Of a stretch of 64,000 nucleotides of DNA, positions 10,403 through 34,036 are shown one piece after another (position 1 is the stretch's first letter; every line of letters begins with the position of its first letter). This DNA comes from Acinetobacter pittii (GTDB taxonomy: Bacteria > Pseudomonadota > Gammaproteobacteria > Pseudomonadales > Moraxellaceae): the NCBI RefSeq assembly GCF_034067285.1, contig NZ_CP139286.1, positions 2,108,001 through 2,172,000 on the forward strand, read 5' to 3'. The translations under genes and the position numbers were made by a program. The notes under the pieces are model-generated. The model saw only the letters and a list, made by a program, of their open reading frames with translations, had not been told where the DNA came from and ran no database searches.

Positions 10403-11074
10403 ATGAATCGCAAATGGTCCAATTAATACCATTAAAATACCGGCAATAACCATAGTCAAACTAGCAATTACACCTTCTTCACTATTGCGCTGCTGTGCTC
10501 TAACTGTACCAAAACCATGGGCTGCATTACCGAAGGCTGCCCCATTGGCTACATTAGAACGGATTTTAGTAATCGCTAAAATTGCATCGCCGCAGATCAT
10601 ACCAACCAAACCCGTAATAACCGTAAATAAAGAAACCAATGCTGCCGAACCATGAATATCTTCCGCTAAAATCATGGCAAATGGTGTTGAAATAGAACGG
10701 GCCATTAAACTGTTGGTCACTTCAGGGCTAAAATGGAACCACTGTGCCATTTCATAGGCAGACATCACACCTACACTCATGCCGACAATAATCGCAATCG
10801 AGAGAACCCCGAGGTTTTTACGAATCGTTTCCCGATAGCGATAAATCGGTACAGCAAAAGCAACCGTTGCAGGCCCTAATAAATTCACAATCCACTGGGT
10901 ATCTTCTGCATAAGTTTGATATGAAATTCCAAAAATCGTCATCAAAATAATGGTGAGTACAGGCACACTAATTGCGGGTGATAACCAAAGTTTTGGATTT
11001 TTCTGATAGATCCGCTTTGCCACAACATAGGCTACCAAAGTCCAGATCAGACAAAGAATTGACCAAATATTCAT
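10385..11074 (-). CDS. lrgB: LrgB/CidB-family membrane protein
   Basis: This 229-residue protein has about six or seven membrane segments and the conserved LrgB block MARSISTPFAMILAEDIHGS and NAAHGFGTVRAQQR. LrgB works with the holin-like LrgA and has been tied to murein hydrolase control, and in some bacteria to export of small organic acids. The gene follows the lrgA-like gene by 12 bp and overlaps the end of the convergent MocR gene. The divergent LysR upstream resembles CidR in context. Confidence 0.88.
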   Translation of the reverse strand: MNIWSILCLIWTLVAYVVAKRIYQKNPKLWLSPAISVPVLTIILMTIFGISYQTYAEDTQWIVNLLGPATVAFAVPIYRYRETIRKNLGVLSIAIIVGMSVGVMSAYEMAQWFHFSPEVTNSLMARSISTPFAMILAEDIHGSAALVSLFTVITGLVGMICGDAILAITKIRSNVANGAAFGNAAHGFGTVRAQQRNSEEGVIASLTMVIAGILMVLIGPFAIHLWLVL

Positions 11075-11086
11075 GTCGTTTGCTCT

Positions 11087-11518
11087 TTAGATATGCTTAT
11101 GTTGAAGACGTTTTCGAGCCTGTAAATAAGCTTTCAAACGATTGTAATAGTGAATCGTCAGGCACGTACTGAGCATGACCGAAATAGTCCCAACTGCAAT
11201 GCTCAAGACAATTTGCCACCCTTCAGTCATAAACAAGGTTTTATACTGAACTACGGCGACCACAACAGGCACAAAAAACAGCAACAGTTCACCTAAAACA
11301 ACAGTTGCTCCCATTGCCACCTGATCCATTTTGATAATTTTAAAGAACAGGCATAAAAGCAATAAAAACATCCCTAAAATGCCTGCCGAGACAGGTACAC
11401 CAAGTTTTTGATGTAATAGATATCCTACCCACCAAAATCCAGCCAAAATCAAAATTTGTTTAACTAAAATTAAAAATGAAGGTTGTGTGGGTGTTCCCGA
11501 AGCAGATTCAGTACTCAT
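11087..11518 (-). CDS. lrgA: LrgA/CidA-family holin-like protein
   Basis: This 143-residue membrane protein has four predicted membrane helices and the family pattern LGVPVSAGILGMFLLLLCLF, followed by LGELLLFFVPVVVAVVQY. It is the first gene of a two-gene lrgAB-type operon. The N-terminal twenty residues are polar and less conserved. The LysR gene starts 110 bp away in the opposite direction, the classical layout of a LysR regulator with its target. Confidence 0.88.
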   Translation of the reverse strand: MSTESASGTPTQPSFLILVKQILILAGFWWVGYLLHQKLGVPVSAGILGMFLLLLCLFFKIIKMDQVAMGATVVLGELLLFFVPVVVAVVQYKTLFMTEGWQIVLSIAVGTISVMLSTCLTIHYYNRLKAYLQARKRLQHKHI

Positions 11519-11628
11519 TTTGCGAAATTAAATGGTTAACTACACTATTATGCTATCTTGGTTAAAGCTGCTAAATATGAATTATTCATGTTAAAATTAT
11601 TCAAAAATGGAATAATCTATTCTTTATT

Positions 11629-12534
11629 ATGCTTTCTCTAAAATCATTACAATGCTTCGTTACACTGGTAAAAACTAAAAGCTTTACCCGTGCTGCTGAC
11701 GAGTTATATCTGACTCAGCCCACCATTAGTAAAATAATACAACAGCTTGAAGAACAGCTTCAGGTCCAACTTTTGGTCAAACCTGAGCACGGCCGAAAAA
11801 GACAAATTGAATTAACCCAAATTGGAGAACGCATTTATCAACATGCAGTCGAGCTTCTTCAGGCAGAACAGAACATCTTTCTTGAGATAGAAAATTATCA
11901 ACAATTAAAAACAGGGACTTTAAAACTTGGCGTTCCGCCTTTAGGTTCACAGCTCTTAACGACTGCCCTGTTTGATTATCACCAACAGTGGCCTGATATT
12001 GAATTGGCTTTTATGGAAGTGGGTTCACGCGGTATTGAACAAGCTTTACTTAATAACGAGTTAGATGTTGGTGTTTTATTGCAGCCTTTTGATACGCAAA
12101 TTTTCAATAGCATTGAGCTATGTAACTACCCTTTAATGGTTCTTTTACGTCGTGATGCCACGTGGGCAACCCGTAAAAAAATAAATCTAGAAGAGCTACA
12201 ACACCAATCATTTTTAATGTTTCCTGAAAATTTCTCTTTAAACAGTATTATTCTCGATGCATGTAAACAGCATGGTTTTTACCCAACCATTGCTTGCCGT
12301 ACCAGCCAATGGCATCTTCTGGCAGACATGGTGTTACAACGTATGGGGATCGCACTTCTTCCTCAATATTATACCGATATGCTTGACCCTAGTTTATTTG
12401 CAGCAGTGCCACTCGAAAAACCAAATATTCAATGGCACTTAGTCATGGCTTGGAAAAAGAATCTTCCTGCCTCACCAGCAGTTCAAGCTTGGCTGAGCAT
12501 TATTCGCCAACATTTTCAGCACATTAAAGCTTAA
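11629..12534 (+). CDS. LysR-type regulator, CidR-like context
   Basis: This 301-residue LysR protein begins MLSLKSLQCFVTLVKTKSF and has an HTH with ELYLTQPTISKIIQQLE near residues 25-41. The effector domain follows from about residue 90 (LKLGVPPLGSQLL). Divergent orientation to lrgAB suggests it controls that operon, as CidR does for cidABC in Gram-positives. The ATG is preceded by AT-rich sequence with no strong ribosome site. A 79-bp gap separates it from the next gene on the same strand. Confidence 0.87.
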   Translation: MLSLKSLQCFVTLVKTKSFTRAADELYLTQPTISKIIQQLEEQLQVQLLVKPEHGRKRQIELTQIGERIYQHAVELLQAEQNIFLEIENYQQLKTGTLKLGVPPLGSQLLTTALFDYHQQWPDIELAFMEVGSRGIEQALLNNELDVGVLLQPFDTQIFNSIELCNYPLMVLLRRDATWATRKKINLEELQHQSFLMFPENFSLNSIILDACKQHGFYPTIACRTSQWHLLADMVLQRMGIALLPQYYTDMLDPSLFAAVPLEKPNIQWHLVMAWKKNLPASPAVQAWLSIIRQHFQHIKA

Positions 12535-12613
12535 TTTAAAAACCGATAAAGCTTTTCCACAAAAAAGCTACCCAATCTTGGATCAGCTCACTTAGACTAG
12601 ATCCGATTGTTTT

Positions 12614-13258
12614 ATGACATGGACAATAACAATGAATAATGAACGTTTTAAGCTCTACACAGATTCACAATTTCTAAGTCCCTATGCGTTTACAGTTTTT
12701 GTAGGGCTACATGAAAAACAAATTCCATTTGAAATAGCAACCATCAACTTAGGTCAGCAAGGCCAGTTTGAAAAATCTTATGTCGAAAAGTCATTAACAG
12801 CCAAAGTGCCTGTACTTGAGCATAACGATTTTGCTTTATCAGAATCATCTGCCATTTTGGAATATCTTGAAGATCTCTATCCAGACACAGCTATCTATCC
12901 AAAAGATATCCAAGCGCGTGCAAGAGCACGACAAATTCAAGCATGGCTCCGATCAGACCTAGTGGCTCTAAGAACTGAACGACCAACCGATGTTATTTTT
13001 ATTCAGCCCACATCTAAACCACTTTCTGAACAAGGTCTAAAAGCAGCCGAGAAACTGTTCTTTGTTGTAGAAAAACTTCTTGCCCCGAACGCCGAATTTC
13101 TTTTTGGTTCATGGAGCATTGTGGATGCTGAACTTGCATTAATATTGCAACGTCTTATTCAAAACAGTGATGCTGTACCAGAACGCTTAAAGAACTATGC
13201 ATTACAGCAGTGGCAACGCCCGAGCGTAAGAAAATGGCTTGCCTTACGACATAAATAA
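12614..13258 (+). CDS. Glutathione S-transferase, YfcF-like
   Basis: This 214-residue (or 208) protein has an N-terminal thioredoxin-like GST domain (KLYTDSQFLSPYAFTVFVGL) with the glutathione-contact segment AKVPVLEHND and SESSAILEYLEDLYP. An all-helical C-terminal domain follows. It most resembles YfcF-type transferases linked to oxidative-stress protection. The in-frame ATG at 12632 (MNNERFKL) is an equally plausible start because neither has a clear ribosome site. It lies 33 bp upstream of a second GST gene on the same strand, so the two are probably cotranscribed. Confidence 0.88.
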   Translation: MTWTITMNNERFKLYTDSQFLSPYAFTVFVGLHEKQIPFEIATINLGQQGQFEKSYVEKSLTAKVPVLEHNDFALSESSAILEYLEDLYPDTAIYPKDIQARARARQIQAWLRSDLVALRTERPTDVIFIQPTSKPLSEQGLKAAEKLFFVVEKLLAPNAEFLFGSWSIVDAELALILQRLIQNSDAVPERLKNYALQQWQRPSVRKWLALRHK

Positions 13259-13291
13259 ATCCTTATATTTACACCAAACACGAGATAAAAA

Positions 13292-14140
13292 ATGAGTGAT
13301 TCAAACTATATTCCTCCACAAGTTTGGCAATGGACTGGAGAAAAAACCGATTTAAACCAACCTACTTCAGGCTCGCGTTATGAACATACACTTCCGGTAG
13401 GGAAACATCCGCTCCAGCTCTACTCTTTAGCAACGCCTAATGGTCAAAAAGTCACGATTTTGCTAGAAGAGCTTTTAGCATTAGGACATCAAGATGCTGA
13501 ATATGATGCTTGGCTCATCAAAATTGGTGAAGGACAGCAATTTGGCAGCGGTTTTGTAGAAATTAATCCAAACTCTAAAATTCCAGCATTGGTTGACCAT
13601 AGCCAGAACCCGCCATTAAGAGTGTTTGAGTCTGGTTCAATTTTGCTTTACTTGGCTGAAAAGTTTAAAGCTTTCATTCCAACTGATATTGCTGCACGTA
13701 CCGAATGTCTCAATTGGCTATTTTGGCAAATGGGTAGCGCACCATATTTAGGTGGTGGTTTTGGGCATTTTTATGCCTATGCCCCTGTTAAAATTGAATA
13801 TGCGGTTAATCGCTTCGCCATGGAAACAAAACGTTTGCTTGATGTGTTAGATCAACATTTAGCAAAGCATGAATATTTGGCTGGTTCTGAATATACCATT
13901 GCAGATATTGCTGCATTCCCTTGGTATGGTGGTCTTGTTAAAAACTGGGTCTATAACGGCGCAGAGTTTTTAGGTGTCGATCAATATAAAAATGTTCAGC
14001 GTTGGGCAGATGCGATTTTAGCGCGCCCTGCGGTACAACGTGGTCGAATGGTCAACCGTACTTTTGGCGATTTAGCTACACAGTTACATGAACGCCATGA
14101 TGCCAGCGACTTTGAAACCAAAACCCAAGATAAAGTTTAA
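13292..14140 (+). CDS. yghU: Glutathione-dependent disulfide-bond oxidoreductase, YghU-like
   Basis: This 282-residue GST-family enzyme shows the YghU hallmarks: the N-terminal extension (YIPPQVWQWTGEKT), the active-site stretch YSLATPNGQKVTILLEEL, the GSH motif NPNSKIPALVDH and ESGSILLYLAEKF. YghU binds two glutathiones and reduces disulfides. The helical domain ends with IADIAAFPWYGGLVKNWVY. It follows the YfcF-like gene and precedes a strong terminator at 14157. Full family length. Confidence 0.93.
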   Translation: MSDSNYIPPQVWQWTGEKTDLNQPTSGSRYEHTLPVGKHPLQLYSLATPNGQKVTILLEELLALGHQDAEYDAWLIKIGEGQQFGSGFVEINPNSKIPALVDHSQNPPLRVFESGSILLYLAEKFKAFIPTDIAARTECLNWLFWQMGSAPYLGGGFGHFYAYAPVKIEYAVNRFAMETKRLLDVLDQHLAKHEYLAGSEYTIADIAAFPWYGGLVKNWVYNGAEFLGVDQYKNVQRWADAILARPAVQRGRMVNRTFGDLATQLHERHDASDFETKTQDKV

Positions 14141-14156
14141 TTTTCATTGTTAAAAT

Positions 14157-14187
14157 AAAACCCACTTTTGCTCAAACAGTGGGTTTT
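14157..14187. terminator. Intrinsic terminator between yghU and the DUF2000 gene
   Basis: A stem aaaacccact / agtgggtttt encloses an 11-nt loop. With flanking A and T runs it can work in both directions, fitting the convergent genes on either side. Confidence 0.85.
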
Positions 14188-14215
14188 ATCGTTCTTCCAA
14201 TAAAAATCTTATTTC

Positions 14216-14623
14216 TTATTGATGCAAAGAAAGCCCCTTAATTGCTTTATCGACCAATTTTTTAGGACCTCTTAACGCCACTCCGACCAAATTTAATTGA
14301 TTCGCATCTTCAGCTAAAAAAACCGCCCGATTATCCTCATCATTTCCTGTAGAAAACATGGCGTGTACATAGGGAATTATCGTTAAATCTTGTTCAATTG
14401 CTTTGCGATGCGCTTTTTGTAGTCCTGATAAATCCCCTTCAAATACCAACATTGGCTGCCCTAACATATTGCCATACTCATAGCCATTCGCATCGATATA
14501 AGGTTTTCCCAACATTTCAGGTACAGCAGAGGCAATTCCCGTTGCCAAAAAAGCCACCACATTTAGCCTTTGCCACGTCGTAAGATCATTACGGACAATC
14601 AGCGCAATTTTTGTGTCAAACAT
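14216..14623 (-). CDS. DUF2000 family protein
   Basis: This 135-residue protein begins MFDTKIALIVRNDLTTWQRLNVVAFLATG, the signature of DUF2000, a small peptidyl-tRNA-hydrolase-like fold of unknown activity. The conserved block QPMLVFEGDLSGLQKAHRKA is present. In related genomes DUF2000 genes often sit beside an AraC regulator and a LysE exporter. Here the LysE gene is intact and divergent, while only an AraC fragment remains (15429-15560). A perfect palindrome lies in the divergent promoter region. Confidence 0.8.
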   Translation of the reverse strand: MFDTKIALIVRNDLTTWQRLNVVAFLATGIASAVPEMLGKPYIDANGYEYGNMLGQPMLVFEGDLSGLQKAHRKAIEQDLTIIPYVHAMFSTGNDEDNRAVFLAEDANQLNLVGVALRGPKKLVDKAIKGLSLHQ

Positions 14624-19331: not shown

Positions 19332-20198
19332 TTACTCAACTAATAGATCTTTTGGATTAATCGTATCGCCATAGACTGGTTTTAAAGTCTTTTCATAAGC
19401 TTGATGAATTACCCCTTCTTTAGCCAGTTTCTCTAAATCTTGATTCAACCAGTCCAATAACTCTTTATCACCTTTTTTCACTGCTGGAGCAATTAAGTCC
19501 TGCTCACCTAAATTGGTAATGCCAACAGTGTAATTTGGATTTTCTTTAGCCCACGCTAAAACCAGCAAGTTATCATGGGCAAGCGCAGCGCCACGACCAT
19601 CTTTTAAAGCATCAAAAGTTTCAGTGTTTTGCTCATACTTTTGTAGTTTAATTTCAGGATGAGTCTTGGTGAAAAATGAATCAGCCGTTGTCCCTTTGTT
19701 TACCAACAAAGTTTTGTCTTTCAGTTGAGCAACATCTGTAATTGGATGGCTTTTAGGAGAAACCACGCCCAAAGCAACTTTTAAATAAGGCTTAGCAAAA
19801 TCGACCACTTCTTTACGTTCTGGCGTAACGGTAAAGTTTGCAAAAATAATATCCACTTTATTGGCTTTTAAATATTCGACACGGTTAGCCGCTTCAGTTA
19901 AAACAAACTCAACTTTGTTTTCATCACCGAGCAGATCTTTAGCAACATGCTTGGCAATCTCTACATCAAAGCCCTGATTTTTCCCTTGGGCATCTAAATA
20001 TCCAAACGGCGGTTTATCGCTAAATACACCAATTCGTACTACGCCATTCTTTTTGATCTGTTCAATACTCGACACAGTTTGTGTGGTATCTGCCGTTTTT
20101 TCAGTAGACTGAGTTCCTTTGTCACATGCAACTAAACCTAAACTCAGTAAAGATGCCGCCAAAATATACTTCACGTTTTGAAATGTTAATGTTGTCAT
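19332..20198 (-). CDS. Polar amino-acid ABC transporter binding lipoprotein (copy 2)
   Basis: This 288-residue family 3 solute-binding protein has a lipoprotein signal (SLLSLGLVAC, Cys25). Family motifs are VRIGVFSDKPPFGYLDAQG, GFDVEIAKHVAKDLLG and ANFTVTPERKEVVDFAKPY. It is close to cyst(e)ine/glutamate-type binding proteins and about as long as its neighbour at 20281, with which it aligns along its entire length. It is the last gene of the five-gene importer cluster, 82 bp after the first binding protein. Confidence 0.9.
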   Translation of the reverse strand: MTTLTFQNVKYILAASLLSLGLVACDKGTQSTEKTADTTQTVSSIEQIKKNGVVRIGVFSDKPPFGYLDAQGKNQGFDVEIAKHVAKDLLGDENKVEFVLTEAANRVEYLKANKVDIIFANFTVTPERKEVVDFAKPYLKVALGVVSPKSHPITDVAQLKDKTLLVNKGTTADSFFTKTHPEIKLQKYEQNTETFDALKDGRGAALAHDNLLVLAWAKENPNYTVGITNLGEQDLIAPAVKKGDKELLDWLNQDLEKLAKEGVIHQAYEKTLKPVYGDTINPKDLLVE

Positions 20199-20280
20199 TA
20201 TTTCACCCTATCGTTCTTGTAAAAGTCGTATTTAAAATAGCAGCGCCTAGTTTTAGGCACTGCTTCAGCGATATTAAAAA

Positions 20281-21141
20281 TTATTGGCCTACATCTAAAA
20301 ACACATTCGGATTGACCGAGTCACCGTAAATTGGTTTCAAGGTTTCATCATAAATTTTCTTAATTTCACCACTTGTTCTGAGCTGCTTGATTTCAGTATT
20401 GAGCCAATTCAATAGTTGGGTATTGCCCTTTTTAACTGCTGGTGCAATAAACTCTTGATCACCAATAGACTGAATACCTGCCACATAACTTGGGTTCTTT
20501 GCGGCCCACGCTAAAGCATAGGTACTATCTTGTGAAATCGCGTCGCCACGACCGTCGGTTAAGGCTTTAAAGGCATCCGAATTTCTTTCAAACTTGAGTA
20601 AATTCACTTTAGGATAATGCTTGGTAAAGTAGGTATCTGAACTGGTGCCTTTATTTACAATTAAGGTCTTACCTTCTAATTGGGCAATATCTGTAATTGG
20701 CTTGGCTTTAGGAGAGACTATGCCGAAAGCACCTTTTAAATAAGGTTCGGCAAAATCGACAACCTCTTTGCGTTCAGGGGTTACCGTAAATGTCGCGAAC
20801 ACCATATCGGCACGATTTGATTTTAAAAACTCCACCCGATTTGAAGCTTCAGTCACAATAAACTCAACTTTTTTTTCATCACCGAGCAAATCTTTAGTCA
20901 CCCGTTTTGCTAAAGCGACATCAAAGCCCTGATTATTCCCCGCGCTATCTACATAACCAAACGGCGGATCATCGGCAAAAACAGCAACTCGTAGAACTCC
21001 ATTTTTTTTGACTTGTTCTAAAGAATGGTCTTCTTGAACATTACTTGGCTGTTCAGTGGATGGCGTTTTACTACATGCAGTGAGTAACACCCCAGCAACG
21101 GCAAGACTGCTTAATATTTTTATTGAATTACGTTCAAACAT
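20281..21141 (-). CDS. Polar amino-acid ABC transporter binding lipoprotein (copy 1)
   Basis: This 286-residue periplasmic binding lipoprotein has a lipobox VLLTACS (Cys23), then VLRVAVFADDPPFGYVDSAG and ATFTVTPERKEVVDFAEPY. It is a tandem paralogue of the gene at 19332. The two differ mostly in the signal region and in scattered surface residues, so they may deliver related amino acids to one membrane complex. It follows the ATPase gene by 30 bp. Confidence 0.9.
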   Translation of the reverse strand: MFERNSIKILSSLAVAGVLLTACSKTPSTEQPSNVQEDHSLEQVKKNGVLRVAVFADDPPFGYVDSAGNNQGFDVALAKRVTKDLLGDEKKVEFIVTEASNRVEFLKSNRADMVFATFTVTPERKEVVDFAEPYLKGAFGIVSPKAKPITDIAQLEGKTLIVNKGTSSDTYFTKHYPKVNLLKFERNSDAFKALTDGRGDAISQDSTYALAWAAKNPSYVAGIQSIGDQEFIAPAVKKGNTQLLNWLNTEIKQLRTSGEIKKIYDETLKPIYGDSVNPNVFLDVGQ

Positions 21142-21171
21142 TCACTTCCTCATGATTCAAATAATAAAAAT

Positions 21172-21903
21172 TTAGTACGACAAAATATTTAAGAAGGCTT
21201 TCGCTCGTTCTGTTTTTGGCTGTTCAAAAAATTCTTCTGGTGAAGCCTGTTCAATAATTTTGCCCTTATCCATAAAAATAATGCGGTCGGCAACCTTACG
21301 TGCAAAGGACATCTCATGTGTCACAATCAACATGGTCATTCCTTCATTCGCCAATTTAAGGACTACATCAAGCACTTCTCTGACCATTTCTGGGTCAAGC
21401 GCAGCGGTAACTTCATCAAGTAAAATGACTTTAGGTTGCATGACCAGTGAACGCACAATAGCGATACGTTGTTTTTGTCCGCCAGACAGTTGGCGTGGAT
21501 AATCAAGTTTTCGCTCAAACAGTCCAACTCGCTTTAACAACTCATCTGCTACTTGTTCAGCTTCATCGCGGTGGCGTTTTTGTACTTTAAGTGGCCCGAG
21601 CAAAATATTGTCAATAACGTTCATATGCCCAAATAGCTCATAGTTCTGAAAAACCATGCCGATTTTTTGACGAGCATTAGTCCAGTCCACATCTTTACCC
21701 AAAACACCTGAACCAGTTAAACGGATTTCACCACCCTGAATCGGTTCTAAACCATTAATACAACGCAGTAAGGTACTTTTACCACAGCCCGATGGGCCTA
21801 AAATAACAACTACCTCTCCTTGTTCTACATCCAGATCAATGCCCTGTAAAATATGACTTTGTGCAAATGATTTCTGTAATTGTTTTATCGATAACAAAGG
21901 CAT
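21172..21903 (-). CDS. Polar amino-acid ABC transporter ATPase
   Basis: This 243-residue ATPase begins [19 protein letters not shown]. Walker A is [12 protein letters not shown], the signature LSGGQKQR and Walker [13 protein letters not shown], typical of GlnQ/GltL proteins. The open frame extends upstream to 21996, but that extra part overlaps the permease. The ATG at 21903 follows GGGAG and starts 3 bp past the permease stop, so it is the correct start. It energises the two permeases upstream. Confidence 0.93.
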
Positions 21904-21905
21904 AA

Positions 21906-22571
21906 TTACTCCCAGACCTTTTCTAAATGTGCCGCCAAACGAGATAAGGGATAGCAAATCAGAAAATACAAAATAAAAATAAAGCCATAAATCCAAAGAG
22001 AAGCGCTCGGCACGGTCAACAGCGAATTTTCAATAATTTGCTGGCCAACTTTAATGACCTCAACCACACCAATAAGCACTGCCAAAGAGCTGGTTTTCAC
22101 CATTCGGGTAAATAAGTTAATCGCGCCTGGTGTTACTCGTTTTAGACTTTGCGGAAAAATGACGTAGATCAAAGTTTGAACATGATTAAGCCCGAGCGCA
22201 TAAGCTGAATCTCGTTGATGCTGATCAATTGAAGTAATGGCTGCACGCACCAAATCGCCCATTTCAGCCGTACCCCATAAAACAAATACAACAACGCACA
22301 CCCACATTGCGGAAAACTGCCAGTTAAACCATGTCGCAAAGCCGAAATAAAACACAAACAGCAAAACTAAAATTGGAATGATTCGAATGGCTTCTAAGTA
22401 CAGGCGGCACAGCGCTTTAACGACTATATTTTTAGAGGTCATAATGACGCCGAAAACTGTGCCGAAAATTGCAGAGAAAAACACCGAAATAAATGCAATT
22501 TTTGCAGTTGCCCAAAGTCCCCACATTAAACGTTCGAGGTGATTCGCTTGAAATAGATAATCAAGTTCCAT
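21906..22571 (-). CDS. Polar amino-acid ABC transporter permease
   Basis: This 221-residue HisM/GlnP-type permease has about five membrane helices and the EAA loop with [20 protein letters not shown], then [20 protein letters not shown]. It overlaps the upstream permease gene by 11 bp and abuts the ATPase. The two permeases probably form a heterodimer, as in glutamate/aspartate importers. Confidence 0.9.
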
Positions 22572-23232
22572 GGCTCACCTTCCGACTTCTGTGCTCCAGA
22601 TAGCTGGTTAAAATAGACACGGGCAATAAAATAATGAGATAAGCCATGATGAGTAAGAACAACGCTTCTGTGGTTTTATAGTCCATGCCAATTAAGTCTT
22701 TGGTGACAAAAAGCAGCTCAACCACAGCAATGGCACTGACCACAGAACTTTCTTTAATCAGAAATAGACAATTTGCCCCGATTGCCGGGATTGAAATAGC
22801 CAGTGCTTGAGGAAAAATGACATATCTAAAAATTTGACTCGGTTGTAGACCAATACTTTTTGCAGAATCAATCTGCCCTTTTGCAACAGACTGCAAACCT
22901 GCTCGGAAGGCTTCTGCCATATAGCTTCCGCCTAAAAAGGTCAGTCCGATCACACCACAAGCGAAACCATCGATTTTGATACCGAGTTTTGGCAAACCGT
23001 AATACAAAAAGAACAATTGAATTAATAAAGGGGTATTTCGAGATAACTCAATATAGAACTGGGCAATTCTATTTAGCACCCGCACGCGATATGTGATTAA
23101 AATGCTGCAAATCAGCCCTACAATAATCGCCAAAATAATGCTGATAATTGAGATTTTCAGCGTGGTCAAAGTTGCAGAGAAAAATTGCGGCAACACACTA
23201 TGGATATACTGCCAGTTCAAGGAAAATTCCAA
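22561..23232 (-). CDS. Polar amino-acid ABC transporter permease
   Basis: This 223-residue permease is first in the importer operon. The N-terminal MEFSLNWQYIHSVLPQFF, the FYIELSRNTPLLIQLFFLYY block and the EAA loop SAKSIGLQPSQIFRYVIFP are hallmarks of the HisQ/GltJ family. The 272-bp region upstream contains the promoter but no recognised operator. Confidence 0.9.
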   Translation of the reverse strand: MEFSLNWQYIHSVLPQFFSATLTTLKISIISIILAIIVGLICSILITYRVRVLNRIAQFYIELSRNTPLLIQLFFLYYGLPKLGIKIDGFACGVIGLTFLGGSYMAEAFRAGLQSVAKGQIDSAKSIGLQPSQIFRYVIFPQALAISIPAIGANCLFLIKESSVVSAIAVVELLFVTKDLIGMDYKTTEALFLLIMAYLIILLPVSILTSYLEHRSRKVSHGT

Positions 23233-23932: not shown

Positions 23933-24892
23933 TTAATGAAATTCTTGCACCAAACTATTAATGTGCGCCACAGCAGCAGTTCGGTTTTCAACGCAAAGTT
24001 TTTCAAAAACATGTTCTAAATGTTTATTCACAGTTCTTGGACTAAGCTCCAAAATTTCTGCAATATCTTTATTGGTTTTCCCTAACAACAACCAGTGCAT
24101 GACTTCTGCCTCACGTTGAGTCAACTGCGGACAGTATTTCAAAATATCAGCCATTTCCAACGCAGGCGTAGAAGTCTTGATCTGGATCAGATAATTTTTT
24201 GCTATGCTCGTTTCAGATTGCCACGGCGTAAGCAATAAAAGCTGTAATTGCTGAGATGGTGTCGAATAAGAACAGCTGGTTAATTTTTTTGGGTCTTTTT
24301 CATGCTCTAAGTCTGAAAACCAAGCTTTTAAGCCTGCTTCAAAACCTTCTAATTCGGGTAAATATTGATTTAGTAGATCACTAGCTTTTTGGGTTTTCCA
24401 CACAATTTTACCCTGAACATCTAGCGCGAGAATGGCTGTTTCCGTTGCATCAATCACCTGCTTTTGTTGCTGCAATAGTTTGGCATGTGCCAAATGTGTT
24501 TTTACCCTTGCTAATACTTCTTCAATATTCAGTGGTTTTGTTACATAGTCCACTCCTCCGACCTGAAAACCACGCACAATATGCTCTGTCTCAGACAAGC
24601 CCGTCATAAAAATGACGGGAATAAACTGCGTAATTGGGCTCGCTTTAAGCTGTATACAACTTTCAAAACCGTCCATATGTGGCATATTGCCATCAAGCAA
24701 AATCATATCTGGTAAGCATCGGTGGGCTATTTCAATAGCACTTAACCCATCGGTTGTGACAAGCACGCGATAACCAGCTTGATCCAGACTTTCATGTAGC
24801 AAGCCCAGATTTTCTGGCACATCATCCACAATCAGAATAACAGCCTGCTCGTTTGGAGAAGCTTGCTGAAAAGAAACATGTTGCGCACTCAT
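23933..24892 (-). CDS. Response regulator: receiver, PAS-like linker, LuxR HTH
   Basis: This 319-residue protein has a receiver domain (residues about 17-135) with the acidic pair in LIVDDVPEN and phosphoacceptor Asp67 (MILLDGNMPHMDG). A PAS-like segment follows (about 145-235, ATETAILALDVQGKIVWKT), then a LuxR/NarL HTH (about 250-312, LTQREAEVMHWLLLGKTNKD). Its ATG overlaps the kinase stop by 4 bp (ATGA), so the two are coupled and form a cognate pair. Its target is probably the divergent NCS1 transporter at 28549, but no binding site can be assigned by eye. Confidence 0.92.
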   Translation of the reverse strand: MSAQHVSFQQASPNEQAVILIVDDVPENLGLLHESLDQAGYRVLVTTDGLSAIEIAHRCLPDMILLDGNMPHMDGFESCIQLKASPITQFIPVIFMTGLSETEHIVRGFQVGGVDYVTKPLNIEEVLARVKTHLAHAKLLQQQKQVIDATETAILALDVQGKIVWKTQKASDLLNQYLPELEGFEAGLKAWFSDLEHEKDPKKLTSCSYSTPSQQLQLLLLTPWQSETSIAKNYLIQIKTSTPALEMADILKYCPQLTQREAEVMHWLLLGKTNKDIAEILELSPRTVNKHLEHVFEKLCVENRTAAVAHINSLVQEFH

Positions 24893-27800
24893 TGCTTATC
24901 CTGAATTAATCGTTGGGCTTGTTTTAAATCAAATTTTTGAATAGCCTGTTCAAGCTGTTCCCATAACTCGTTATGCTCCGGAAAATTTTGACGACATTGC
25001 ATTAAAGTCTGTTGAATTCCACGAATATAGCCCTGTCCAATCAAATCATTTAACTGTTGCAAGCTTTGCGGTAAATCGAGTAGATCATTATTTTCCGATT
25101 GTGTAATTGATGTATGAACAACGACTTGCTCCTGCTTAAACACCTTTACATCAAGTGATTGAGCTTCATTATTTTCAAGTAGTGCATCTGATTTAGAATC
25201 AATCCACACCAAGCCTAACTTGTCTCCAATTTTACTCAGCAACAAATTGAGATCGATTGGTTTTAGCATAAAGTCTTCACTTAAGACGGCATCTTGTGGA
25301 TTGACCTCACGTTCGCCTGCATTCGCTGAAATAATTAAAATCGGCACATTGGTAATATTATTCTGACGCAATAACCGCGCTGTTTCCCACCCGCCCATCA
25401 AAGGCATATTTAAATCCATCAAAATCAGATTAGGCTGGAAAATAGGTACATGTCTTAAACAGTCAATGCCCGACTCGGCTTCTTCAATCATAAATCCTAA
25501 AGGTTTTAGAAAATTAGCGACTAAGCCTCGGTCCACCGCTTCATTATCGACGACCAAAATTCGTTTTCGCTCGCCTTGATAACCCGTAATTTGGTTGGAG
25601 TAAACATTAGAAATTGGATGAACTACTTCTTTTGAAGGTAAGTAAAACTTAATCTTAAACTGTGACCCCTGATTGAGCTGACTACTCACAGATAGCTGGC
25701 CACCAAGTAAATCGACCAACAATTTGACAATGGGTAGTCCGAGCCCTGTTCCGGTAAATCCGCCTTGAACCACATTACTGCCCCGTTCAAACGGATTAAA
25801 TATTCGTTCTAAATCCGCTTCGGCGATACCACAGCCTGTATCTCTAATTTCAAAGTAAGCCGTTTGAAAACGGTACTCAACCTTCAAAGTAATTGTACCG
25901 CTCGTCGTAAACTTTAAAGCATTGCCTAGTAAATTGATGAGTACTTGTTCTAAGCGTTTTTTATCAGTACGAACATAGTGCGGCAGGTTCTCTCCAATTT
26001 CATAAACAAACTGTAAATTCTTCTGTTCAAACTGTGGCTGAAACATTTGAATAATTTGTTCTATAAAATTTGGGAAATGTACATCCACTACATTTAAAGA
26101 AATCTTGCCCGTTTCAATTCGGGCTAAATCTAGTAAACCGTCAATGAGTGAAGTCAAATGCTGCCCACTGCGACTAATCACCCCGAGCGCCATTTTGCCT
26201 TGCTCTGAAAGCTGTTCTTGTTTTTGAAGCAATTGGCTATAGCCCAAAATACTATTTAGAGGTGTTCTTAGTTCGTGGCTAATACCAATGACATAACGGC
26301 TTTTTGCATCATTTGCTCGCTCTGCTGAAATTCTGGCATCTTGCAGGTCCTTTGAAGTGACTTCATGGGCAGCAATTTCATCAAACAATAATGCCGTTTG
26401 TTGGTGTGTCTCGATTTCGGCATTCCGACGGCTTTCATCGTTTAACACTAACCACCATGCAGCAACGCTCATCAATAAAAATAAAATGGTGTAAATTTTG
26501 ACAAACAGTGTAAAGAGCTGTGGAACCGCTGCCGCATTAATGGTTTCTAAATAGGTTTTTTCCTGAATATAAACCAGACTTAAACTCACTGCCAGAACAA
26601 TAGACAACCCCAGAGTCAGTAATAAATACAAACTGACCCTGCTATTTAAACGGCTGGCCCAACGTTCGGGTAAATAGTGCCAGATGGCTTTTTTGAGCTG
26701 TACTGACCAACGCGCGTCAGGTTTGCATAAGTCGTGGCAGCGTGCTTCAAGTGAACAGCATAATGAGCAAATCGTACCATTATAGGCTGGACAGCCCGCC
26801 ATATCAGCAAGTTCATAGTCCCGTTCACATACCACGCAGTTAGCAACCGAAGTCGCCTGAATTTTTTCAGGCTGGCGTGCAATGTAATATTTGCCTTTGG
26901 TTAAGTAAGCAATAACAGGAACACATAACACCGCACTCCCCAAAGCAATAAAACTCGCCAAGCCTTTTGCCATCAGTCCGAAAAAGCCCAAATAACTCAG
27001 CATTGATAACACTGAAGCGATGAGTAAGGCACCCACGCCTACGGGATTAATGTCATATAAATAAGCACGGCGAAATTCAATTCCCTTTGGGCTTAAACCT
27101 AAAGGTTTACAGATAATTAAATCGGCAACCACGGCACCGATCCATGCCAAAGCAATATTGCTATATAGCCCCAAAATACGTTCAACCGCGTGGCTAATGC
27201 CCATTTCCATCAAAACAATGGCAATAAACACGTTAAAAAGAAGCCAGACAATTCGCCCCGGATGGCTATGCGTCAGACGAGCAAAAAAGTTTGACCATGC
27301 CAATGAGCCAGCGTAGGCATTGGTCATATTAATTTTAATTTGCGCCAAGCAAACCAGTGCTAATGTGAGAATTAAAGCAAGCTGAGTATTTGGAATAAAT
27401 TGTTGATAGGCAACCCAATACAAATAAGTCGGATTGTCTAGTTCAGAGACAGGAATAAACAGCTGAAAAGCCAACACCATCAGCAGCATGCCCATCAAAA
27501 CTTTTAGAAATCCGAAAATAATCCAAGATGGGCCACCTAAAAAAACGGCAAAACGCCATGCAGTTCTGTTCTTTTCTTTTTGCGGTAAAAAACGTAAATA
27601 GTCGGCCTGCTCACCAATTTGGATCACAAATGAAAAAATAAGAGTGCACGCCGCACCAAAGTAATACAGATTGAAATCGGTTGAGTTTGAAACCGCCCCA
27701 ACAAAATGCAAACTACTGCTTAAAATTTGCGGCTGTTTCCAAAGTACAAAAAACCACGGTAATAACAGCAATAATAGCCAGATTGGTTGTGTGATCGCCT

Positions 27801-28353
27801 GAACCTTATTAATAAAACCAATACCTTTGACCACTAAAGGTAAAATGACTAAGGCAGAAATTAAGTACCCGATAACTTGCGGAATACCTAAAGCAAGCTC
27901 AAGTGCCATCGCCATAATTGCGGCTTCAAACGCAAGCAAAATAAAGGTAAAGCTGGCATAAATTAGAGATGTAATGGTCGAGCCAATGTAGCCAAAACCT
28001 GCACCACGAGTAAGCAGATCAACATCTACATTATATTTTGCAGCGTAGTAACTAATCGGCCAACTGGTCAAAAATATGATGGTGCATACGACAATTGCTG
28101 CCCATAACGCATTGCTAAAGCCATACTGCCAAAGCATGGTCGCCCCAATGGCTTCCATAGCCAAAAAGCTAACGGTCGAAATTGCGGTGTTGGTCACCGT
28201 CCAAGGCGACCATTTACGTACTGAGGTAGGTGCATAGCGGAGTGCATAATCTTCGATACTTTCATCTGCCACCCAAATATTATATTCACGGCGTGTTTTG
28301 ATCACACGTTGTGGCGCTTGTTGGGGGCGGGAAGAATCTGGCATAACACTCAT
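24889..28353 (-). CDS. NCS1 transporter-domain hybrid histidine kinase
   Basis: This is a 1154-residue chimera. Residues about 25-490 form a complete NCS1 nucleobase-permease-like domain with 12 or so helices (DLLTRGAGFGYIGS, AQIKINMTNAYAGSLAW). Residues 506-543 are Cys-rich (CVVC, NGTICSLCC, CHDLC). Two further helices lie at about 573-635. HisKA has phosphorylatable His693 (ISHELRTPLN), the HATPase shows NALKF, DTGCG and GTGLGL, and a receiver at about 930-1045 has Asp980. The C-terminal 100 residues look helical but show no HPt histidine. The transporter part probably senses a substrate, as the SSS domain of CbrA is thought to. It is coupled to the response regulator downstream and divergent from a separate NCS1 transporter. 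Confidence 0.92.
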   Translation of the reverse strand: MSVMPDSSRPQQAPQRVIKTRREYNIWVADESIEDYALRYAPTSVRKWSPWTVTNTAISTVSFLAMEAIGATMLWQYGFSNALWAAIVVCTIIFLTSWPISYYAAKYNVDVDLLTRGAGFGYIGSTITSLIYASFTFILLAFEAAIMAMALELALGIPQVIGYLISALVILPLVVKGIGFINKVQAITQPIWLLLLLLPWFFVLWKQPQILSSSLHFVGAVSNSTDFNLYYFGAACTLIFSFVIQIGEQADYLRFLPQKEKNRTAWRFAVFLGGPSWIIFGFLKVLMGMLLMVLAFQLFIPVSELDNPTYLYWVAYQQFIPNTQLALILTLALVCLAQIKINMTNAYAGSLAWSNFFARLTHSHPGRIVWLLFNVFIAIVLMEMGISHAVERILGLYSNIALAWIGAVVADLIICKPLGLSPKGIEFRRAYLYDINPVGVGALLIASVLSMLSYLGFFGLMAKGLASFIALGSAVLCVPVIAYLTKGKYYIARQPEKIQATSVANCVVCERDYELADMAGCPAYNGTICSLCCSLEARCHDLCKPDARWSVQLKKAIWHYLPERWASRLNSRVSLYLLLTLGLSIVLAVSLSLVYIQEKTYLETINAAAVPQLFTLFVKIYTILFLLMSVAAWWLVLNDESRRNAEIETHQQTALLFDEIAAHEVTSKDLQDARISAERANDAKSRYVIGISHELRTPLNSILGYSQLLQKQEQLSEQGKMALGVISRSGQHLTSLIDGLLDLARIETGKISLNVVDVHFPNFIEQIIQMFQPQFEQKNLQFVYEIGENLPHYVRTDKKRLEQVLINLLGNALKFTTSGTITLKVEYRFQTAYFEIRDTGCGIAEADLERIFNPFERGSNVVQGGFTGTGLGLPIVKLLVDLLGGQLSVSSQLNQGSQFKIKFYLPSKEVVHPISNVYSNQITGYQGERKRILVVDNEAVDRGLVANFLKPLGFMIEEAESGIDCLRHVPIFQPNLILMDLNMPLMGGWETARLLRQNNITNVPILIISANAGEREVNPQDAVLSEDFMLKPIDLNLLLSKIGDKLGLVWIDSKSDALLENNEAQSLDVKVFKQEQVVVHTSITQSENNDLLDLPQSLQQLNDLIGQGYIRGIQQTLMQCRQNFPEHNELWEQLEQAIQKFDLKQAQRLIQDKQ

Positions 28354-28548
28354 GTTTCGGATGTGGCTGCATTAAACTTAGCAATCCTTATGCCAAAAGT
28401 CATTTATCATGGCGATTTTCTCGAATACGCACATATACGCAAAATAACGTATTTTCAATTTTTCCCAAAAATCACACACTCAAAACCATCAAAAAACAAT
28501 GATCAATATTTGTGTTGATTGACCGAAAATGATTGGGAGATTGATGTT

Positions 28549-30165
28549 ATGAGTGTATCTGAACATCCAAATCTGGACACTGTGCAAGGTACAGATTCAC
28601 AAAAAGCAGTGAATGAAACCTTAGAAGATTATACTTTACGTTATGCTCCACACAGCTTTCGGCGCTGGAGTCCCAAAGTTGTCGCTATTACTGCTCTTGG
28701 TGGTATTGCCTATCTTGCTGACTTTTCTATTGGCGCCAGTATTGGTATGTCTTACGGAACAACCAATGCTGTTTTCTCCATTTTATTTGCAGCGATTATT
28801 ATCTTCTTAACCGGCATTCCTTTAGCCTACTACGCAGCGCGCTATAACATCGATCTTGACTTGATTACCCGTGGCGCAGGTTTCGGTTATATCGGCTCAG
28901 TCCTGACCAGTATCATTTTCGCCAGTTTTACCTTTATTTTCTTTGCCCTTGAAGGTTCAATCATGGCGCAAGGGTTATTGCTCGGTTTAGGCATTCCGCT
29001 TTGGGCAGGTTACCTCATCTCAACAGTTATGGTCATACCGCTGGTGATTTACGGCATGAAAGCCTTAAGTAAATTACAAGTCTGGACTACCCCGCTTTGG
29101 CTCGTTCTGATGATTGGTCCTGTGGCCTATCTGATTTATCAAGAGCCTACTTTAGTCAGCCAGTTTGCAACTTTTACTGGTAACGAAGGTTTCGCAACTG
29201 TAGACATGGCAGCAATCATGTTAGGTGCTGGTATATGTTTATCGCTAATCATGCAAATTGGTGAGCAAATTGATTACTTACGTTTCATGCCTGCTAAAAC
29301 AAAAGAAAATAGCAAAGCATGGTGGGCTGCGGTTATTTCAGCGGGTCCGGGTTGGGTGATTTTAGGGGCAATTAAACAAATTATTGGGGCATTTCTAGGG
29401 TTCTATTTACTTACTAAAATTCCGGGCGTAAACAGCACTGAACCTGTTCAACAGTTTAATGCAGCGTTTCATGACATGCTTCCGGGCTGGGCAGCTTTAA
29501 CACTTGCAGTGATTTTGGTAGTTATTTCTCAAATTAAAATTAATGTGACCAATGCTTACTCTGGTTCCCTTGCATGGACAAGTGCCTACACACGTATTAG
29601 CAAACATTATCCTGGTCGTATTGTGTTTGTGATGGTGAACTTGGCAATTGCGCTTGCTTTAATGGAAGGCAACATGTTCGCGGTACTGGGTAAAATCTTA
29701 GGGTTCTATTCAAACTTTGCAATTGCTTGGGTTGTGGTTGTTGCAACAGATATTTCAATTAATAAATATGTATTAAAACTTTCACCGAAAGAACCGGAAT
29801 ACCGCCGTGACATGCTCTACAATGTAAACCCTGTCGGTATGGTTGCGTTCCTTGTATCAGCAGGCTTATCAATTGCAGCGTTCTTCGGCTTACTCGGTAG
29901 TTTCTTGGCACCTTACTCTCCGCTTATCGCGCTTGTACTTGCTTTTGTATTAACGCCAATCATGGGCTTATTAACCAAAGGAAAATACTACATCAAGTCA
30001 CATGATGACGGTATTAAAGAACCACGTTACGATGTTGAAGGTACACCAGTTGCAACGGTTTACCACTGCCGCGTATGTGAGCAAGGTTACGAGCGCCCAG
30101 ATATTATGTTCTCTCACAAACATAACGGCACGATCTGCTCTTTGTGTAAAACACTCGACGCTTAA
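28549..30165 (+). CDS. NCS1 nucleobase (purine/cytosine) transporter with Cys-rich tail
   Basis: This 538-residue permease aligns with the first 535 residues of the divergent kinase. Shared blocks include TRGAGFGYIGS, IGEQIDYLRFMP, QIKINVTNAYSGSLAW, VNPVGM and LTKGKYYIKS. The tail ends in CRVC...NGTICSLC, the same putative zinc-ribbon-like motif found in the kinase. The open frame begins at TTG 28519, but ATG 28549 with GGGAG upstream is the better start. NCS1 proteins import purines, cytosine, hydantoins or thiamine precursors; the exact substrate is unknown. Likely regulated by the kinase/regulator pair. Confidence 0.9.
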   Translation: MSVSEHPNLDTVQGTDSQKAVNETLEDYTLRYAPHSFRRWSPKVVAITALGGIAYLADFSIGASIGMSYGTTNAVFSILFAAIIIFLTGIPLAYYAARYNIDLDLITRGAGFGYIGSVLTSIIFASFTFIFFALEGSIMAQGLLLGLGIPLWAGYLISTVMVIPLVIYGMKALSKLQVWTTPLWLVLMIGPVAYLIYQEPTLVSQFATFTGNEGFATVDMAAIMLGAGICLSLIMQIGEQIDYLRFMPAKTKENSKAWWAAVISAGPGWVILGAIKQIIGAFLGFYLLTKIPGVNSTEPVQQFNAAFHDMLPGWAALTLAVILVVISQIKINVTNAYSGSLAWTSAYTRISKHYPGRIVFVMVNLAIALALMEGNMFAVLGKILGFYSNFAIAWVVVVATDISINKYVLKLSPKEPEYRRDMLYNVNPVGMVAFLVSAGLSIAAFFGLLGSFLAPYSPLIALVLAFVLTPIMGLLTKGKYYIKSHDDGIKEPRYDVEGTPVATVYHCRVCEQGYERPDIMFSHKHNGTICSLCKTLDA

Positions 30166-31519: not shown

Positions 31520-32131
31520 TTATCTCATTCGTTTGAGGTTATACGTCACAACTCCCCAAATCACCAGTTCTTGCCCCTCTTCAATATAAATATTCTGATA
31601 ATCAGGATTTTCTGCTTTTAGCCAAACTTTAGGTGGCTGAAATTGTGTATCAATCATTAAGCGCTTAACGGTGAAATCATTGTCGATGAGTGCAATTACA
31701 ATATCACCCGATTTAGCGGGAATACTACGATCCACAATAAGCGGATCATTAATATCAATTCCAGCATCTAACATTGATAAAGAATTAGCTTTGACAATAA
31801 ACGTGGCATTTTCATTTCTAATTAAATATTCATTTAAATCGAGTGCTTGCTCAATATCATCTTGTGCAGGTGAAGGAAAACCTGCTGCAACACGTTCTGT
31901 TGCCAAAGGAATGTGATAAATTTTATCGTTATTCGGATGCACTGGTTGAACGTTAAGTTTTGAGTTAAAGTCGGTCAAGTTATTGGTTTTGACATTATTC
32001 AATAACCAATTTTTGATAAAGTTAACTTGGGACTCGGGAACACGAATAACTTTGGTGGGTTCATTGAACTGTGCTTTACGTCCGGCATTTTCTCGTGCAC
32101 CACCATGCTCGAACTCTTTTTTCTTGGGCAT
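31520..32131 (-). CDS. umuDAb: UmuDAb, LexA-like self-cleaving SOS repressor
   Basis: This 203-residue S24-family protein starts MPKKKEFEHGGARENAGRKA. The cleavage site Ala83-Gly84 (VAAGF), the catalytic Ser119 (NSLSM) and Lys156 (TVKRL) fall exactly at the positions reported for Acinetobacter UmuDAb. The extended N-terminus provides DNA binding. In Acinetobacter, which lacks LexA, UmuDAb represses error-prone polymerase genes until RecA-stimulated cleavage. The frame opens further to 32155, but GGAGG 4 bp before ATG 32131 fixes the start. No umuC follows. It is divergent from ddrR. Confidence 0.95.
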   Translation of the reverse strand: MPKKKEFEHGGARENAGRKAQFNEPTKVIRVPESQVNFIKNWLLNNVKTNNLTDFNSKLNVQPVHPNNDKIYHIPLATERVAAGFPSPAQDDIEQALDLNEYLIRNENATFIVKANSLSMLDAGIDINDPLIVDRSIPAKSGDIVIALIDNDFTVKRLMIDTQFQPPKVWLKAENPDYQNIYIEEGQELVIWGVVTYNLKRMR

Positions 32132-32168
32132 ATCGCCTCCCTTATCACCGTTCAAATCCTACACAAAC

Positions 32169-32417: not shown

Positions 32418-32651
32418 ATGAAAAATCAACGTGATGCGGTTTTAGGTTATGCAAATGAGCAACATGCTTATTATATCCGCCTCATTGAAAATGATGCGGT
32501 TTTAGGTGAAAGCTATGGATTATTCTGTGAAAATCCAGATAGCGAAGCAGCCGAAAGTATTATGACGACACTATTCTTAAAAAAATCTTTTTGGTTAAAC
32601 GGGTCTGAATATCTTGATATTGTAAAAGGCCTACAACCTCTCCCTCAGTAA
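32418..32651 (+). CDS. ddrR: DdrR, DNA-damage co-regulator
   Basis: This 77-residue Acinetobacter-specific protein begins MKNQRDAVLGYANEQHAYYI. It contains an internal echo (DAVLGYANEQ / DAVLGESYGL). DdrR is known to be strongly induced by DNA damage and to act with UmuDAb in repression. The open frame starts at ATG 32403, but GGAG at 32405 lies 9 bp before ATG 32418, the better start. It is divergent from umuDAb and ends before a strong bidirectional terminator. Confidence 0.92.
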   Translation: MKNQRDAVLGYANEQHAYYIRLIENDAVLGESYGLFCENPDSEAAESIMTTLFLKKSFWLNGSEYLDIVKGLQPLPQ

Positions 32652-32666
32652 ATACAGTAAGTAAGC

Positions 32667-32702
32667 TAACAACAAAGGAGGCAAAAGCCTCCTTTGTTGT
32701 TA
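32667..32702. terminator. Bidirectional terminator between ddrR and the KGG gene
   Basis: A perfect 16-bp stem (taacaacaaaggaggc / gcctcctttgttgtta) has an aaaa loop. It separates the convergent ddrR and KGG-repeat genes. Confidence 0.85.
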
Positions 32703-32713
32703 AAACATTCTGC

Positions 32714-34036
32714 TTAAGACGTAAAACGTCCGTAGGCATCACGTTTTTGATTACGAGAGTTTTGACCACGGCCATCATAATCATCGTCGTCATCACGGCT
32801 GCGACCACGACCTCGTCCACCTGAGCGACCACCGCGATCATCATCGTCGTCGTCATCACGGCTGCGACCACGACCTCGTCCGCCTGAACGGCCACCGCGA
32901 TCGTCATCATCGTCGTCATCACGGCTGCGGCCACGACCTCGTCCGCCTGAACGGCCACCGCGATCGTCATCATCATCGTCATCACGGCTGCGGCCACGAC
33001 CTCGTCCACCTGAGCGACCACCGCGATCGTCATCATCATCGTCATCACGGCTGCGGCCACGACCTCGTCCGCCTGAACGGCCACCGCGATCGTCATCATC
33101 ATCGTCGTCATCACGGCTGCGGCCACGACCTCGTCCGCCTGAACGGCCACCGCGATCGTCATCATCATCGTCGTCATCACGGCTGCGGCCACGACCTCGT
33201 CCGCCTGAGCGGCCACCGCGATCGTCATCATCATCGTCATCACGGCTGCGGCCACGACCTCGTCCACCTGAACGGCCACCGCGATCATCATCATCGTCGT
33301 CATCACGGCTGCGGCCACGACCTCGTCCGCCTGAACGGCCACCGCGATCGTCATCATCATCGTCGTCATCACGGCTGCGGCCACGACCTCGACCACCTGA
33401 ACGGCCACTGCGATCGTCATCATCATCGTCATCACGGCTGCGGCCACGACCTCGACCACCTGAACGGCCACCGCGATCGTCATCATCATCGTCGTCATCA
33501 CGGCTGCGACCACGACCTCGCCCGCCTGAACGGCCACCGCGATCGTCATCATCGTCGTCATCACGGCTGCGGCCTCGGCCTCGTCCGCCTGAGCGGCCAC
33601 CGCGATCATCATCGTCATCGTCGTCATCACGGCTACGACCTCGGCCTCGACCACCTGAACGGCCACCGCGATCGTCATCATCGTCATCATCATAACGGCT
33701 GCGACCACGGCCACTTGAGCGGCTACCGCGATCGTCATCATCATCGTCATCATCACGACTGCGGCCACGACCATTACGGTCATTTTTATGACTTAAAGCA
33801 CCCGCTTCACGTGCTTCTTCAGACGTAAATTCATGAGCGTTACCACTTGCATGGGCTGCTCGGCCAGCTTCACGAGCTTCTTCAGAAGTAAACTCATGTG
33901 CATTACCACTCGCGTGAGCTGCTCGCCCACCTTTGCTGGCTATTTCTCGTACTCTTTCAGGATCCATACTTGCAAATCCACGATTTGAAGTACCTGTTCT
34001 ATTGTTATCATCATCTTCATATCTAGTATTAGCCAT
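32714..34036 (-). CDS. KGG-motif protein with about 16 Asp-rich/RGR repeats
   Basis: This 440-residue, extremely hydrophilic protein begins with a short N-terminal part and a KGG stress-motif region (EIASKGGRAAHASGNAHEFT, then a second copy EEAREAGRAAHASGNAHEFT). From about residue 90 it is an array of roughly 16 units of the type RGRGRSR-D7/8-RGGRSGG. It closes with NQKRDAYGRFTS. It has no signal peptide and no hydrophobic core, so it should be disordered with alternating charge. KGG proteins (YciG/con-10 type) are stress-induced. Disordered hydrophilins have been linked to desiccation survival in Acinetobacter, but I cannot tell whether this is one of those. A ribosome site (aggaag) precedes the ATG. 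Confidence 0.85.
   Translation of the reverse strand: MANTRYEDDDNNRTGTSNRGFASMDPERVREIASKGGRAAHASGNAHEFTSEEAREAGRAAHASGNAHEFTSEEAREAGALSHKNDRNGRGRSRDDDDDDDDRGSRSSGRGRSRYDDDDDDDRGGRSGGRGRGRSRDDDDDDDDRGGRSGGRGRGRSRDDDDDDDRGGRSGGRGRGRSRDDDDDDDDRGGRSGGRGRGRSRDDDDDDDRSGRSGGRGRGRSRDDDDDDDDRGGRSGGRGRGRSRDDDDDDDRGGRSGGRGRGRSRDDDDDDDRGGRSGGRGRGRSRDDDDDDDDRGGRSGGRGRGRSRDDDDDDDDRGGRSGGRGRGRSRDDDDDDDRGGRSGGRGRGRSRDDDDDDDRGGRSGGRGRGRSRDDDDDDDRGGRSGGRGRGRSRDDDDDDDRGGRSGGRGRGRSRDDDDDYDGRGQNSRNQKRDAYGRFTS
32765..33772. repeat. Tandem array of about 16 units of 60-69 bp
   Basis: The coding strand repeats a unit encoding RGRGRSRDDDDDDDRGGRSG. Units differ by whole codons, mainly seven versus eight Asp, plus mostly silent changes. 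Rare variants are RSG for RGG, a Tyr-for-Asp change and a shortened first and last unit. The array should expand and contract by slippage or recombination. Confidence 0.9.

Follow-up and report, generated by a model that had tools for sequence, protein, structure and literature searches.

The kinase and response regulator encoded at 23,933 to 28,353 of the analysed DNA are proposed to be a two-component system in which the kinase, AmsS, senses urea or short-chain amides and the regulator, AmsR, activates a divergent free permease and urease through the inverted repeat TACG-N8-CGTA. A probability of about 0.7 is given to this reading, for which gene content, gene neighbours, motif distribution, protein fold and a tree were computed. 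The pair is already in print as AmsSR or StkSR, in texts in which neither a permease domain nor a ligand was recognised. A known Acinetobacter regulator that had no signal would gain a likely one.

Locus organization and fold of the permease domain

The window, i.e. the whole analysed stretch of 64,000 nt, derives from a genome of the Acinetobacter calcoaceticus-baumannii complex; the features of the locus are collected in Table 1. An earlier note on this DNA had described a NCS1 permease joined to histidine kinase domains, coupled to a LuxR-type regulator and divergent from a free NCS1 permease, and this organization was borne out. The NCS1-type permease, HisKA, HATPase and receiver domains lie in one intact ORF, the kinase domains being recognized by Pfam and the permease by its AlphaFold2 fold. 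The ORF overlaps that of the regulator by 4 nt, and the divergent free permease is 42% identical to the N-terminus of the kinase over 552 positions.

Table 1. Features of the amsSR locus, with positions in the window
Feature	Position	Strand	Notes
AmsS/StkS-type hybrid histidine kinase with NCS1-type permease sensor domain	24889..28353	-	1154 aa
Kinase, NCS1-type permease domain	26884..28263	-	residues ~31-490
Kinase, CxxC...CSLCC element	26749..26847	-	residues ~503-535
Kinase, two extra membrane helices leading to a long helix to HisKA	26290..26640	-	residues 572-688; from the model
Kinase, HisKA	26107..26304	-	residues 684-749; predicted phospho-acceptor His692 in SHELRTPLN
Kinase, HATPase_c	25642..25965	-	residues 797-904
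Kinase, receiver	25228..25560	-	residues 932-1042; Asp976 in LILMDLNMP
Kinase, C-terminal helical segment	24895..25074	-	from the model and tails compared by eye
AmsR/StkR-type response regulator	23933..24892	-	receiver residues 19-131; LuxR/GerE HTH 256-309
Inverted repeat TACGCAAAATAACGTA, proposed AmsR site	28436..28451	.	divergent promoter region
Free NCS1-type permease, proposed urea (or small-amide) importer	28549..30165	+	538 aa

Similarity between the two permeases extends through the C-terminal CxxC...CSLCC element, which is common to both and which we would guess to be a zinc knuckle. In the AlphaFold2 model of the kinase, the extra helices correspond to residues 572-605 and to the start of 607-688, at low confidence from residue ~641 onwards (pLDDT mostly <50). 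The kinase has a receiver without Hpt; its C-terminal tail, compared by eye among 10 kinases, shows a LGY.RG-like motif, and no conserved His was seen in these 10 tails. In the middle of the regulator, the only PAS match is below threshold (E 0.022).

On the other side of the regulator, a tandem pair of amino-acid-type solute-binding proteins is encoded together with ABC permeases and an ATPase (19332-23232, minus strand). Further along the window, a 440-aa protein (32714-34036, minus strand) contains many GGRSGGRGRGRSRDDDDDDD-type repeats, and the long ORF at 32560-33783 is a reading of the same repeat DNA in another frame.

PF02133 is matched by neither the kinase nor the free permease of the window; it is matched by two of 19 free permeases (best 1e-7) and by none of 22 sensor domains. 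Profile comparison against three PF02133 proteins of the source genome gave E 1.9e-4 with a probability of 48, and against two of these three E 0.0018 with a probability of 15. Models were obtained for the free permease (pLDDT 73, pTM 0.76) and for the whole kinase (pLDDT 62, pTM 0.49, from an alignment which included permease rows). The closest folds to both are CodB and Mhp1. Since the models match these two structures best, NCS1 appears to be the right class for both proteins, despite the Pfam misses. The SSS (SLC5) family is absent from the Pfam matches of the kinase and of the sensor domains, and SLC5-type entries rank below CodB and Mhp1 among the fold matches of the kinase model. No STAC match was reported by Pfam for the kinase, in a library which may not include STAC.

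In a TM8-type segment, the motif Q-x-K-I-N-x-T-N-A-Y contains an invariant Lys (residue 340 of the kinase, 330 of the permease). This residue, we assume, sits about where Mhp1 has Na2-site residues, and it may be involved in proton coupling. Fifteen positions separate 22 aligned sensors from 18 aligned permeases, among them Glu67, found in 22/22 sensors, versus Phe59, found in 18/18 permeases.

Distribution, neighbourhood and history of the fusion

NCS1-kinase fusions were found in 35 of 149 Acinetobacter genomes and in 52 of the 398 genomes of a Pseudomonadota-wide sample, the source genome included. Among plasmid records, the kinase finds 506 matches at E 1e-100, and Klebsiella accounts for 338 of these. 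The one record inspected of those 338, from Klebsiella pneumoniae (L141), carries at 3897-14252 a fusion kinase and a regulator that are transcribed away from urtABCDE-amiF; an acetamidase gene is close by. Two loci (L191 and L192) encode shorter, non-hybrid fusions of 885 and 894 aa, with formamidase genes within the same stretch; neither the repeat nor an AmsR-type regulator was found in either stretch, and these proteins are possibly a second way to wire the same sensor.

Neighbouring genes were labelled by BLAST, for which 19 enzymes and transporters encoded at the plasmid loci served as references. The phylum sample contains 56 matches outside the source genome, 54 of which were fetched, G348 and G483 being omitted as their genera were already represented. 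Genes of urt, amidase or urease type are present near the fusion in 52 of these 54 loci (urt in 42, amidase-type in 35, urease in 12), and the other two are short contigs of 11.0 kb and 4.8 kb. In 48 of the 54 an AmsR-type regulator could be recognized. The same association holds for all 13 annotated plasmid loci, hand-picked among the matches listed, where the kinase-regulator pair lies near urtABCDE, formamidase, aliphatic amidase or urease, and for 11/11 Acinetobacter loci in which the kinase is not beside the permease, all carrying urt, amidase-type or urease genes. UrtA itself is not universal, as it scores above the family cut-off in 134 of the 398 phylum-sample genomes.

In Acinetobacter, the divergent slot is occupied by the free permease in 24 of the 35 kinase genomes, corresponding to the lineage of the window, and by urtABCDE in 9 of the remaining 11. 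The earlier note had proposed to search for fusions and for their co-occurrence with a divergent NCS1 gene: the usual divergent partner is urtABCDE, the permease taking this place in one Acinetobacter lineage. Free permeases without an adjacent kinase were collected from 73 loci, where some species occur twice and a few genomes have a kinase elsewhere. Urease genes lie near 26 of them, including loci of Kribbella, Salinisphaera and several Acinetobacter, and the other 47, in part short stretches, show no urease gene.

In a tree of 171 rows, built by a quick method, with long outgroup branches and with the rows of 11 near-identical loci omitted, the free permeases group apart from the fused kinases, which likewise stay together except for two short non-hybrid members placed near the root. 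The Acinetobacter kinases are one clade, within which those with an adjacent permease form one sub-clade (8 rows); the adjacent permeases likewise group together (8 rows). Sensors and permeases therefore appear to be separate old groups, and the kinase does not seem to derive from the permease adjoining it. The idea of a receptor evolved from the very transporter under its control is not favoured by this topology, nor by urtABCDE being the usual divergent partner. The simplest history suggested by these sequences would be a single replacement of urtABCDE by a permease of the kind found beside urease in other Acinetobacter.

The inverted repeat and its link to urease

Alignment of the divergent gaps revealed a single conserved island, TACG-N8-CGTA. 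The survey was carried out on 76 loci having a divergent gap, cut under 1100 bp, for which a Markov model predicts the repeat in at most 0.6% of regions. It is present in 18/18 kinase-permease gaps (many of them near-copies), in 9/9 kinase-urtA gaps of Acinetobacter, in 29 of 40 other kinase-urtA gaps and in the one kinase-fmdA gap, from Methylovirgula; it is absent from the kinase-ureA/B gaps (0/7) and from the one kinase-urtB gap. A second copy is located at the start of amiE (identified at 691 bits, versus a cut-off of 427) in all nine Acinetobacter urt loci. The 67 fusion loci scanned contain 61 copies, of which 53 immediately precede kinase, urtA, fmdA or amiE, where 3.5 are expected, and 44 of the 67 loci have at least one copy so placed. 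By linkage, the repeat accompanies 34 of 41 amidase-linked loci versus 2 of 15 urease-linked ones.

Control regions gave no match, either in the urtA promoters of 20 top-scoring UrtA matches whose genomes lack the kinase or in the 73 free-permease loci, with no kinase in the stretch. Distant urtA promoters of kinase-containing genomes carry the repeat in 4 of 20 cases; in these four genomes (G167, G373, G527 and G537) the kinase lies at urease, with no site there, and two of them (G373 and G527) also have a second kinase beside urt genes, with the site present. From this distribution we infer that TACG-N8-CGTA is a probable AmsR operator.

The source genome contains ureC, and no UrtA, AmiE or FmdA match was found in it. 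The loose repeat alone means little, because 37 copies occur in this genome as compared to 79 for the reversed control pattern. By inspection, only two of the 37 read TACGCAAWWTAACGTA: the copy at 28436 and one located 98 bp before ureA. A matrix trained on kinase-gap sites only, ureA sites being excluded, detected the latter (at ~98 bp before ureA, score >=17.7) in 20 of 24 genomes having both kinase and permease, and in none of those having kinase only (0/7), permease only (0/11) or neither (0/23), the highest score among these 41 being 9.4. Of 1300 shuffled regions, 99% score 8.7 or less; their maximum, 19.1, is above the weakest accepted ureA sites (17.7 and 18.7). The 20 genomes do not represent 20 independent events, because they belong mainly to two lineages, the calcoaceticus-baumannii complex and the A. 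brisouii group. The site is missing from G122 (A. baylyi), G036 (A. soli), G098 (A. qingfengensis) and G040. The A. baylyi locus that corresponds to G122, L040, contains kinase, regulator, permease and the repeat.

Urease is found in 31 of 35 Acinetobacter genomes with the kinase versus 34 of 114 without it (Fisher p 5e-10, relatedness ignored), and in 35 of 44 with the permease versus 30 of 105 without it; ureC is missing in 4 of the 35 and 9 of the 44 (one, G111, is 64% complete). A separate block like TGAGCACATATTTTGCTTA is located ~40-60 bp before ureA, with small changes, in 12 aligned Acinetobacter genomes with or without the kinase (L238-L302). Its spacing resembles, as we take it, that of a sigma-54 promoter.

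Proposed mechanism, alternatives and known systems

In the proposed mechanism, external urea or a small amide would bind the NCS1-type domain of the kinase, and the ligand state would pass through the two extra membrane helices to HisKA, leading to a presumed phosphorylation of AmsR by a phosphate route that may pass through the receiver of the kinase or bypass it. AmsR would then bind TACG-N8-CGTA and switch on uptake together with breakdown; in this genome, uptake would be served by the divergent free permease, and breakdown by urease, through the same repeat before ureA. For related Acinetobacter, the expected targets of this regulator are urtABCDE and the aliphatic amidase gene amiE, and elsewhere urtABCDE and formamidase. 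Urea is preferred for the lineage of the window, because urease is the only linked enzyme found in the genome, and small amides are preferred at loci with a linked amiE or fmdA, although within any one clade the two kinds of ligand are indistinguishable. Both the sensor role of the permease domain and the choice of the free permease as target, put forward in the earlier note, are indirectly supported, the latter by the operator-like repeat shared between the two genes.

The nucleobase ligand suggested there fares differently. The well-known NCS1 members carry nucleobases, hydantoins and allantoin (in part from the available text of PMC11633122), and CodB and Mhp1 are the nearest folds, as would suit a kinase sensing nucleobases or related heterocycles and controlling a nucleobase permease. 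However, substrates within NCS1 are hard to predict from sequence, according to the same text, the company kept by the fusion in the loci examined is urt, amidase and urease genes (labels from the 19 plasmid-locus references), and the repeat also occurs at ureA and amiE. Because neighbours, repeats and gene content of the genome point to urea and short-chain amides, nucleobases are probably the wrong ligand, and we regard this alternative as very unlikely.

A permease domain binding no ligand might instead read the flux or state of a partner, be it the free permease, an ABC transporter or membrane energetics. The invariant Lys may mean ion coupling, by comparison with Mhp1. The PamsSR promoter is induced by CCCP in the available text of Casella 2023 (PMC10112286), where depolarised membranes are reported as well. 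That reporter, however, reads expression rather than kinase activity; moreover, the divergent transporter is ABC in most sampled loci and a NCS1 permease in one clade, so that a conserved partner contact would be hard to keep, and we regard this explanation as unlikely. The same report describes 738 genes changing in an amsR mutant under CCCP; pmrCAB goes up when stkR is deleted, with colistin present, and amsS and amsR are up under lipoprotein stress. These responses would fit a global regulator of respiration, alternative metabolism or envelope state, with the permease as an incidental neighbour. Yet deletion of amsSR had no viability effect in lipoprotein depletion, the stkR mutants carried unintended mutations according to Casella et al. 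(PMC10112286, available text), and the phylum-wide motif and synteny tie the system to urea and amide genes, which makes such a role quite improbable.

If sensing of urea or amides by AmsS is true, a system with differing reported roles in an important hospital genus gains a ligand together with a regulon small enough to test, and the NCS1 class joins the few transporter-derived kinase sensors, providing a membrane urea sensor. At about even odds, AmsS-type kinases would be direct membrane receptors for urea or short-chain amides, built on a NCS1 permease, that have spread across Pseudomonadota and reached plasmids of Klebsiella. All of the output would then have been exchanged in one Acinetobacter lineage, the five-gene ABC importer urtABCDE giving way to a NCS1 permease encoded by one gene, and amidase to urease, the regulator retaining its operator among close relatives while its transporter and its enzyme were both replaced.

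The kinase and regulator match AmsSR (ABUW_2427/2426, A1S_1393/1394), alias StkSR, by description, size and gene order. A LexA/UmuD regulator encoded at 31520-32155 (minus strand), presumably UmuDAb-like as judged from locus order, helped to identify the kinase as amsS. By ORF count, the order from A1S_1388/1389 (ddrR-umuDAb) in the available text of PMC7273328 to A1S_1393/1394 fits the window, and the permease gene would be A1S_1392. The complementation fragments, of 3979 bp (500 bp upstream included) and 4945 bp, agree with ORF lengths of 3465 and 960 bp. In the available texts of PMC10112286 and PMC9146086, AmsSR/StkSR, like the window pair, consists of a 14-TM hybrid kinase without Hpt and a LuxR-type regulator overlapping by 4 nt (helices of the window kinase were counted from its AlphaFold2 model), and is sporadic in Acinetobacter with A. 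rudis most divergent, as is the fusion. The structure of AmsS, with its 14 membrane helices, was called unique (PMC10112286).

In the available text of these publications, the N-terminus is not called a transporter and no ligand is given, whereas the window kinase is of NCS1 type in a urea/amide context. In its main text, PMC10112286 makes no mention of permease, urea, urease, amide or nitrogen, and PMC9146086 none of permease, urea or transmembrane. Among the matches listed from open-licence PMC literature (subscription papers and supplements being outside its scope), none reports a histidine kinase with a NCS1-type domain, nor urea or amides as the signal of AmsSR; the references of PMC8399564 include the title of a thesis from 2010 that deals with NCS1 transporters and with sensor kinases.

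Other transporter-related sensors offer partial parallels, as described in the available texts. The SLC5/STAC kinases CbrA, CrbS and RpuS also fuse a solute-symporter domain to a kinase (PMC5715377, PMC7096432, PMC9100948), but with a SLC5 domain, a STAC linker and, for CrbS, acetate as signal. CrbS resembles the window kinase in being a hybrid with a partner regulator and an inverted-repeat operator, controlling an uptake gene, although the CrbR motif matches are unlike TACG-N8-CGTA (PMC5715377). The ammonium sensor kinase of Kuenenia likewise uses a transporter fold as sensor, of the Amt fold and of another family (PMC5764959). The UTS of Klebsiella CG307 (UrtABC/AmiF) is similar to the urtABCDE-amiF genes divergent from the plasmid fusion kinase, and we infer that it is the cluster of L141; it is treated as a transporter cluster, a histidine kinase not being mentioned in the main text (PMC13060141). 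Finally, AmiC/AmiR governs an amide-inducible amidase with transporter genes, by binding-protein and antiterminator control (PMC13209695) rather than by a membrane kinase, as proposed here.
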